From Thermus brockianus (lineage in GTDB: Bacteria; Deinococcota; Deinococci; Deinococcales; Thermaceae): DNA of 64,000 nucleotides. The notes beneath the pieces are model-generated. The model searched no databases. It was not told the origin of the DNA and saw only the letters and a list, made by a program, of their open reading frames with translations. The stretch spans positions 124,001 to 188,000 of the forward strand of contig NZ_JAKEDV010000004.1 in NCBI RefSeq assembly GCF_021462505.1, written 5' to 3'. The stretch's first letter is position 1; every line of letters begins with the position of its first letter. A program made the position numbers and the translations under genes. Below, piece after piece: positions 22,862-24,837 of this stretch.

Positions 22862-24292
22862 ATGAGGGTACAGGGGGCTTTTTTCTTTAAGGTAGCCGGG
22901 CGGCTGGAGCTGCCTTCCTTTAAAGTTTTGGCGTTTGTGCTAGCCGTCTTTCTTAGCTTTCTGGTTTCTGTTGGGCTTTTATTCGCACACTATTCCGAAA
23001 AACCCCTCACCTTATCCTCTTGGGAAATAGCGTTTTGGGCATTACTCCTGTTCTGGTCTGTCCGGGTGGAAGTAAGACTCCCCCTCAGCGCAAGCATGTC
23101 TCAGCTATTCCTTTTTGCCCTCGCCCTCATTGCCATCAGTCCCCCCTGGCTTCCCCCTCTACTGGCCTTCCTCGCCCAGTGGGGAAGTGAGGCTTGGTAT
23201 AAGCAACTTTTTAACCGGTCGCAAGATGGGGTTGCCACAGCCTTTGCTGCTCTGGTATGGGCTTTTTTGCAGGAAAATCCCGTCTGGCTAGGAAGTTGGA
23301 ATCTAAGTGCAGCAGTTGGCATTGCTCTAAGTGCCCTGGTTTTCTTCGCCGTGAATACTGGATTGGTAACTTATATAATTCACTTGGATAGTGGCACACC
23401 CCTCCGGGAAATCTGGCAACGAAACTACCATTGGCTCGCTCTCAGCTACCTCCTTCTCTCCCCCCTCGCCCTCCTCCTCGCCCGCGCCTACCAAACGCCC
23501 CTTATCGGCAACTGGGGAGGGTGGACCGTGCTCATGTTCCTCATCCCCCTCTACTACAGCCGCTTCTACTGGGATGAGAAGGTCAGGCTAGAACAGGCCT
23601 TTGATACCACCTTGGAAGTCCTGATGAACGCTTTAGAGGCCAAGGAGCAGGAAACCCGCTTCCACTCCGAGCGCGTGGCGGACATCTCCCGGGACCTGGC
23701 CCTAGCCTTCTACAAGGACCAAGCCAAGGCCCAAGACATCTACCGGGCGGCTAGGCTCCACGACATCGGCAAAATCGCCATCCCCGAAGCGGTGCTCTTA
23801 AAGCCCGGAAAGCTCACGGACGAAGAGTACGCCCTCATCCAAAGCCACCCGCAAAAGGGGGTAGAACTCCTTTCTCCCGCCCGGAAGGTGGCCTTTGACG
23901 ACCTGGTCTACCGGGTCATCCTCTACCACCACGAGCGCTGGGATGGGCGGGGCTACCCCAAGGGCCTTGCCGGGCACAACATCCCGGAAGAGGCCCGCAT
24001 CGTGGGCCTGGCGGACGCCTACGAGGCCATGACCGCCGGGCGCCCCTACCGGGAGGCGCTACCACCCGAAGAAGCCCTAAAGGAAGTCCAAGAAAACTCC
24101 GGCCGCCAGTTTGACCCCGACCTGGTCCGCCTCTTCACCCAGCTTTGGGAGCAAAACCCCATCTGGCGTGACCGGCAAGCCTACATCGCAGCAAAGGAGG
24201 GATCCTTATCACGCTCTACCTCGCCGCAGCTCTTTTCGGCCTCGGGCTCGCCCTCGCCCTCGGAGCCCGGCTCAAGGACCTCGGAGGAATAG
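22862..24292 (+). CDS. Multi-spanning membrane HD-GYP domain protein
   Basis: A 476-residue protein. The N-terminal half (about 20-240) has seven or so membrane helices without a named sensor family; the C-terminal part is an HD-GYP domain with ETRFHSERV, His300-Asp301 in LHDIGKIAIP, LIQSHPQKG, and HHERWDGRGYPKGL. All metal ligands and the GYP motif are intact, so c-di-GMP hydrolysis is likely. The membrane half is markedly less GC-rich than the HD-GYP half; the change falls near 23430. The last 30 residues (Ser/Pro-rich) are read from DNA that in another frame encodes the DUF5317 N-terminus, so the gene overlaps its neighbour by about 85 bases. Confidence 0.85.
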   Translation: MRVQGAFFFKVAGRLELPSFKVLAFVLAVFLSFLVSVGLLFAHYSEKPLTLSSWEIAFWALLLFWSVRVEVRLPLSASMSQLFLFALALIAISPPWLPPLLAFLAQWGSEAWYKQLFNRSQDGVATAFAALVWAFLQENPVWLGSWNLSAAVGIALSALVFFAVNTGLVTYIIHLDSGTPLREIWQRNYHWLALSYLLLSPLALLLARAYQTPLIGNWGGWTVLMFLIPLYYSRFYWDEKVRLEQAFDTTLEVLMNALEAKEQETRFHSERVADISRDLALAFYKDQAKAQDIYRAARLHDIGKIAIPEAVLLKPGKLTDEEYALIQSHPQKGVELLSPARKVAFDDLVYRVILYHHERWDGRGYPKGLAGHNIPEEARIVGLADAYEAMTAGRPYREALPPEEALKEVQENSGRQFDPDLVRLFTQLWEQNPIWRDRQAYIAAKEGSLSRSTSPQLFSASGSPSPSEPGSRTSEE

Positions 24293-24837
24293 ACTTAAAG
24301 GCTCCTTGGGCCTTCCTCCTCGCCGCCTTGGCCGAGGGAGGATTGGCCTATGGCACCTATCGGGGCCTCCTGCGGCCGGAATGGGCGGGACCTTTGGCCA
24401 AGTTGCTGGTCCTCTTTCTGGTGGGCTATGGCCTTTACCAAAACCGCCACCTGAAAAGCCTTTACCTGGTCCTGGTGGGGCTTCTTCTCAACACTGCCGC
24501 GATCTTCGCCAACGGGGGGCACATGCCCGTAAGTGCCGAGGCGCTGAAGCGGGCGGGCATTGGGGGCTTCGTGCCCATCGTGGAGACCAAGGGAGATGCG
24601 GTACACGCCCTTCTGGACGAAACCACCCGCCTGCCCTTTCTCGGGGACGTCATTCCCTTGCCTCCCTTGCGCAAGGTGGTGAGCCCGGGGGACCTTTTCA
24701 TCCTCCTGGGCATCGCCGGGGTAGTGGTGGAAGGTGCCTTAAGGTCTAGCCGTCCGCGCCTTTCCCGGCGGGTTCAGGCCCTAAGGGTCCTCCTCTTCCT
24801 GGCCTTGGTGTGGGCCCTCCTCCTCCTGCGGGCCTAG
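24208..24837 (+). CDS. DUF5317 family membrane protein, apparent ATC start
   Basis: A protein of about 209 residues with several membrane helices. The family is recognised by MPVSAEALKRAG, HALLDETTRLPFLGDVIPLP and KVVSPGDLFILLGI. The first canonical start in frame is TTG 24328, but the conserved first membrane helix (ITLYLAAALFGLGLALALGA) lies upstream in frame. AAGGAGG (24194-24200) is placed seven bases before an ATC codon at 24208, with no ATG, GTG or TTG between. So either ATC initiates translation, or the protein is reached by frameshift from the HD-GYP gene. It overlaps that gene by 85 bases and is surely co-expressed. Function of DUF5317 is unknown. Confidence 0.7.
   Translation: MTLYLAAALFGLGLALALGARLKDLGGIDLKAPWAFLLAALAEGGLAYGTYRGLLRPEWAGPLAKLLVLFLVGYGLYQNRHLKSLYLVLVGLLLNTAAIFANGGHMPVSAEALKRAGIGGFVPIVETKGDAVHALLDETTRLPFLGDVIPLPPLRKVVSPGDLFILLGIAGVVVEGALRSSRPRLSRRVQALRVLLFLALVWALLLLRA

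Follow-up and report, generated by a model that had tools for sequence, protein, structure and literature searches.

Which codon starts the second gene of an HD-GYP/DUF5317 pair is the question raised by positions 22862-24837 of the window, by which we mean the whole 64,000-nucleotide stretch of Thermus brockianus DNA analysed here. The DUF5317 gene carries no ATG, GTG or TTG where its protein seems to begin, and the region where it must start lies inside the coding sequence of the HD-GYP gene. The relevant features, all on the plus strand, are as follows.

22862-24292, plus strand: HD-GYP phosphodiesterase gene with a MASE9-type membrane N-terminus, start ATG at 22862, stop TAG at 24290-24292.
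24169-24171, plus strand: TGA, upstream in-frame stop in the DUF5317 frame.
24194-24200, plus strand: Shine-Dalgarno (SD) sequence AAGGAGG, within the HD-GYP coding sequence.
24208-24210, plus strand: ATC, putative near-cognate start codon of DUF5317 (ATT or ACG in relatives), based on orthologue counts.
24208-24837, plus strand: DUF5317 membrane protein, 209 codons and a stop, based on Pfam PF17248 and an AlphaFold2 model.
24208-24292, plus strand: two-frame overlap of 85 nt between the HD-GYP tail and the DUF5317 N-terminus, based on leucine codon bias across relatives.
24289-24291, plus strand: rare isoleucine codon ATA, whose TA together with the next G forms the HD-GYP stop TAG, in 23 of 26 Thermus species.

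The HD-GYP product matched the Pfam families HD_5 (146 bits) and MASE9 (82 bits), and its translation contains the HD and GYP motifs (HDIGK and HHERWDGRGYP) within one domain. The DUF5317 frame matched PF17248 with 123.6 bits against a cut-off of 25, and lies in the -1 frame relative to HD-GYP, which reads past the ATC as far as its TAG, with approximately the 28 last codons overlapping DUF5317. After the TGA at 24169-24171, the first ATG, GTG or TTG in the DUF5317 frame is the TTG at 24328, and given this stop and the absence of usual starts, a canonical start further upstream is barred. Both this absence and the spacing of 7 nt between AAGGAGG and ATC had been reported in the first-pass annotation, and both were confirmed. 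When the 817 GGAGG sites that the window contains, counting both strands, were scored for an ATC, ATT, ATA or ACG codon at 7 nt, followed by a frame of at least 100 amino acids and with no usual start upstream or up to 39 codons downstream, only the site described here showed the full pattern.

The same annotation had placed the beginning of a conserved first membrane helix at the ATC, and several observations agree with this. The AlphaFold2 model of DUF5317 (pLDDT 90) contains a helix at residues 2-17, and this first helix is also present in DUF5317 homologues that start with ATG. A DUF5317 paralogue in the genome from which the window is taken (L056, 1559-2053) has an ATG start that aligns at this residue, plus or minus one, and in the homologous gene pair of Clostridia an ATG, GTG or TTG is found at the equivalent position, where the two genes overlap by 4 nt (NTGA) or by 11 nt. 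The usual start codons in homologues outside the Thermales indicate that this position is the true start. A gene caller limited to ATG, GTG and TTG is forced to choose a downstream codon, here TTG 24328, which would leave the first helix out of the protein. However, the first usual codon is scattered by species, from codon 8 to codon 71, identity over residues 2-27 is 89% within Thermus and the changes fall mainly on the third positions of the DUF5317 codons, and the helix that would be lost is confidently folded and shared with the ATG-started homologues. A downstream start was rejected for the lack of a conserved position, and we consider it very unlikely that the protein begins there. The true N-terminus of DUF5317 escapes any such gene caller. 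Bacterial genes known to have a non-canonical start are very few, and standard annotation is unable to detect them. In two Clostridia-class genomes (L167 and L168), DUF5317 heads far longer open frames of 543-584 amino acids and seems to be fused to a further C-terminal domain. No relative of DUF5317 was found in the PDB, either by sequence or by fold (best E 1.2), a search for the family name found no paper on DUF5317, and only a role beside HD-GYP is suggested for its function.

Of 111 genomes from the phylum Deinococcota, 63 carry DUF5317, and the junction with the upstream gene, read in all 63, has the same layout throughout. Start codons were counted over 62 rows, omitting a same-species genome with ATT, a duplicate locus and a second copy. 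The codon at the start position was ATC in 23 genomes, ATT in 4 and ACG in 35, and was never ATG, GTG or TTG, although these 62 rows are related by descent and do not represent 62 independent events; on the protein tree, the start-codon states required about 8 changes, two ATG outgroup rows included. The codons divide by clade: Thermus has 22 ATC and 4 ATT, and outside Thermus there are 35 ACG and a single ATC, the latter in one sister genus. The first-pass annotation had suggested aligning orthologues, with an ATG at the same codon pointing to a sequencing error or strain mutation. Apart from the rarity of ATC starts nothing speaks for such an accident, and since none of the 63 orthologues within the Thermales, from independently assembled genomes, carries ATG there, this explanation is refuted and its probability is close to nil.

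The SD core occupies positions -12 to -8 at a fixed distance in all 62 genomes and reads GGAGG in 56, GGGGG in 5 and GAAGG in 1, meaning that GGAGG or GGGGG stands 7 nt upstream in 61 of 62, and the pattern is conserved in every DUF5317-bearing genome of the phylum. Nucleotide -1 is T and nucleotide 0, the first of the start codon, is A in 62 of 62 genomes. Among the wobble positions of the HD-GYP codons between -45 and 0, only three are invariant: -12 and -9, which belong to the SD, and 0, the A itself. In contrast to this, the flanking residues of the DUF5317 frame vary, with P, G, L, S, R, F, H or I at residue -1 and T, S, R, Q, E, D, N or G at residue +1. An almost invariant SD core, spacing and A amid variable codons is the pattern predicted by a start codon behind an SD. 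Of the options offered earlier, ATC serving as a start, as in infC, has the best support. In five Thermales genomes the DUF5317 frame contains upstream in-frame stops at -15, -15, -15, -18 and -21, which places the start at or adjoining the ATH or ACG codon; an upstream canonical start was rejected on these grounds. Where the codon is ACG, its CG also opens an arginine codon of HD-GYP, thus only the A is clearly free of HD-GYP constraint and ACG as such is tied to initiation less strongly than its A. Compared with other genera, the HD-GYP gene of Thermus is longer by about seven codons in the stretch from WRDR to the SD (24170-24200), suggesting that the SD, AAAGGAGG, was rebuilt at an unchanged distance from the start. 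In one genome (G068, locus L105), DUF5317 is apparently frameshifted mid-gene.

The other explanation offered in the first-pass annotation, a frameshift fusion with HD-GYP, is disfavoured. Ribosomes translating HD-GYP would slip into the -1 frame near the SD, which would act as stimulator, and produce an HD-GYP-DUF5317 fusion protein. DUF5317 is indeed in the -1 frame, the overlap is open in both frames, and internal SD sequences can stimulate -1 frameshifting. Thermus also contains weak one-codon slip sites (G_GGA in 26 of 26, and A_AAG in 23), but these are absent outside Thermus-type sequences, and a conserved slippery heptamer X_XXY_YYZ was not found, the maximum at any offset being 3 of 61 genomes. 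Neither was there a downstream stimulatory RNA structure, with z = +1.4 for the window and z = -0.8 and 0.0 for the alignment consensus. Moreover, slippage offers no reason for an invariant A at nucleotide 0, and the Clostridia homologues are separate genes. Two genomes in which the upstream frame is not intact bear on this as well. In G039 (L055, upstream of 1699), a family-2-like glycosyltransferase gene stands in place of HD-GYP and stops 58 nt short of DUF5317; only the SD and a remnant of the HD-GYP C-terminus survive. DUF5317 is intact in this genome, with ATT-ACG at the start and no usual start codon, yet there is no HD-GYP from which to slip; the tree places this DUF5317 with those of Thermus, so that it may be an acquired gene. 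In G024 (L016), a break at the GYP motif interrupts the HD-GYP frame, and the tail stop comes earlier (+73), while DUF5317 is intact and the SD and ATC are kept; the break could be an assembly error rather than a real loss. Taken with the evidence on both sides, we regard frameshifting as unlikely.

A start codon within another gene leaves the overlap with two frames to serve, and the codon usage of DUF5317 reflects this. Within the overlap, DUF5317 codons shun G at the third position, which is the second position of the HD-GYP codons. Across relatives, only 6 of 410 leucine codons in the overlap end in G versus 1071 of 1998 downstream, and for valine these numbers are 3 of 62 and 490 of 856. 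In G039, without HD-GYP, leucine codons with G are back at 4 of 7, which is a small sample. The HD-GYP stop TAG is derived from the isoleucine codon ATA and the following G in 23 of 26 Thermus species, and ATA accounts for 9 of 135 DUF5317 isoleucine codons downstream of the overlap. Variation at fourfold sites is lower in the overlap than downstream (0.28 versus 0.38). The codon bias, the ATA-G stop and the reduced fourfold variation make it most likely that this tail of HD-GYP is translated and under selection. This selection on the tail itself, and the ACG in most relatives, go beyond what had been noted earlier.

The anatomy of the junction and the two-frame constraint are thus observed, and our main reading, with a probability of about 0.8, is that DUF5317 is translated independently of HD-GYP by near-cognate initiation, with the following mechanism and origin. 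The 30S subunit would be held by the strong SD, which lies within the HD-GYP coding sequence and 7 nt ahead of the start, and initiation would use fMet on a near-cognate codon: AUC in the window, AUU in some Thermus genomes and ACG in other Thermales. The poor start codon would keep output low and is expected to make it sensitive to IF3, as in infC and Streptomyces sigR, so that this is probably low-level, IF3-sensitive initiation. The ancestral state would have been an ordinary HD-GYP/DUF5317 pair with an ATGA overlap, in which one substitution gave ACGA, later ATCA or ATTA in Thermus. That substitution would have removed the HD-GYP stop TGA and weakened the DUF5317 AUG together, thereby extending HD-GYP by a tail that now appears to be under selection. 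With such a tail selected, DUF5317 output is probably below the level of HD-GYP. The initiation event, its IF3 sensitivity, the ratio of the two proteins and the order of these events are what we infer from the arrangement and its conservation. If correct, a single substitution is able to lengthen one gene and down-tune the next.

The base after the start codon is A in 52 of 62 genomes, hence a reversion to ATG would truncate the HD-GYP tail. In the ten genomes with another base at this position, ATG would create no HD-GYP stop, and the codon is still ACG or ATC, an indication that weak initiation is also selected for, as the order-wide retention of ACG or AUY suggests too. The unusual element is the conserved ACG, which mismatches the anticodon at the middle base. 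We are inclined to think that ACG, with this central-base mismatch, is a natural and conserved start codon, on a bacterial chromosomal gene, in approximately 35 Thermales species, kept because it is embedded in the translated HD-GYP tail and because, as a weak start, it fixes how much HD-GYP is made relative to its membrane partner. Relative to the literature on start codons, an ACG start would be an exception, and it would provide a clean test system, in cultivable thermophiles, for a central-base mismatch as a natural bacterial start and for IF3 control of genes besides infC.

A special route is conceivable: the initiator tRNA could be a variant one, or ACG could be turned into AUG by C-to-U editing, which is known for ACG start codons in chloroplasts (PMC9845219). 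However, C-to-U editing is unable to convert AUC or AUU to AUG, and no single special tRNA would match all three of AUC, AUU and ACG. To our knowledge, there is no mRNA C-to-U editing of this kind in these bacteria, and we consider such a route extremely improbable.

When near-cognate initiation at DUF5317 is compared with known systems, the Clostridia pair (L040, L147-L171) has the same gene order and homologous proteins, but a usual start and, instead of a long two-frame overlap, one of 4 or 11 nt. The dnaX gene and IS elements share with the DUF5317 locus -1 overlapping frames and an internal SD-like motif, but the DUF5317 locus lacks a conserved slippery heptamer and a stimulatory structure, and its motif and spacing suit initiation. 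In Streptomyces, sigR starts with GTC behind the SD AGGAGGTG and is repressed by IF3, and the start is GTC in 32 and GTT in 2 of 34 species (PMC5472188). As with DUF5317, this is a conserved non-canonical start with a very strong SD in a two-gene operon, in the case of sigR a regulatory operon in which the start sets the partner ratio (PMC5472188). Unlike DUF5317, sigR comes first in its pair, and its effect was shown by experiment; the putative DUF5317 start is buried in the upstream gene and is found order-wide as AUC, AUU or ACG.

The classic case is infC, which starts with ATT in E. coli and ATC in Streptomyces (PMC5472188). It resembles DUF5317 in its near-cognate start, strong SD and long evolutionary retention, but it is autoregulated by its own product, whereas DUF5317 is a membrane protein with no known translation role. 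In Thermus, all 23 infC genes with a start readable by one pattern (L117, L120-L123, L125-L131, L133-L137, L139-L144) showed AGGAGGTG or GGGAGGTG followed by TAG or TAA and then ATA. In L143, ATA is the only start-like codon of infC and is thus the likely start. The strong SD and ATA indicate that this clade uses near-cognate initiation in the classic IF3-regulated gene. In other families of the phylum (L138, L145 and L146), infC likewise has ATA after GGAGGTG.
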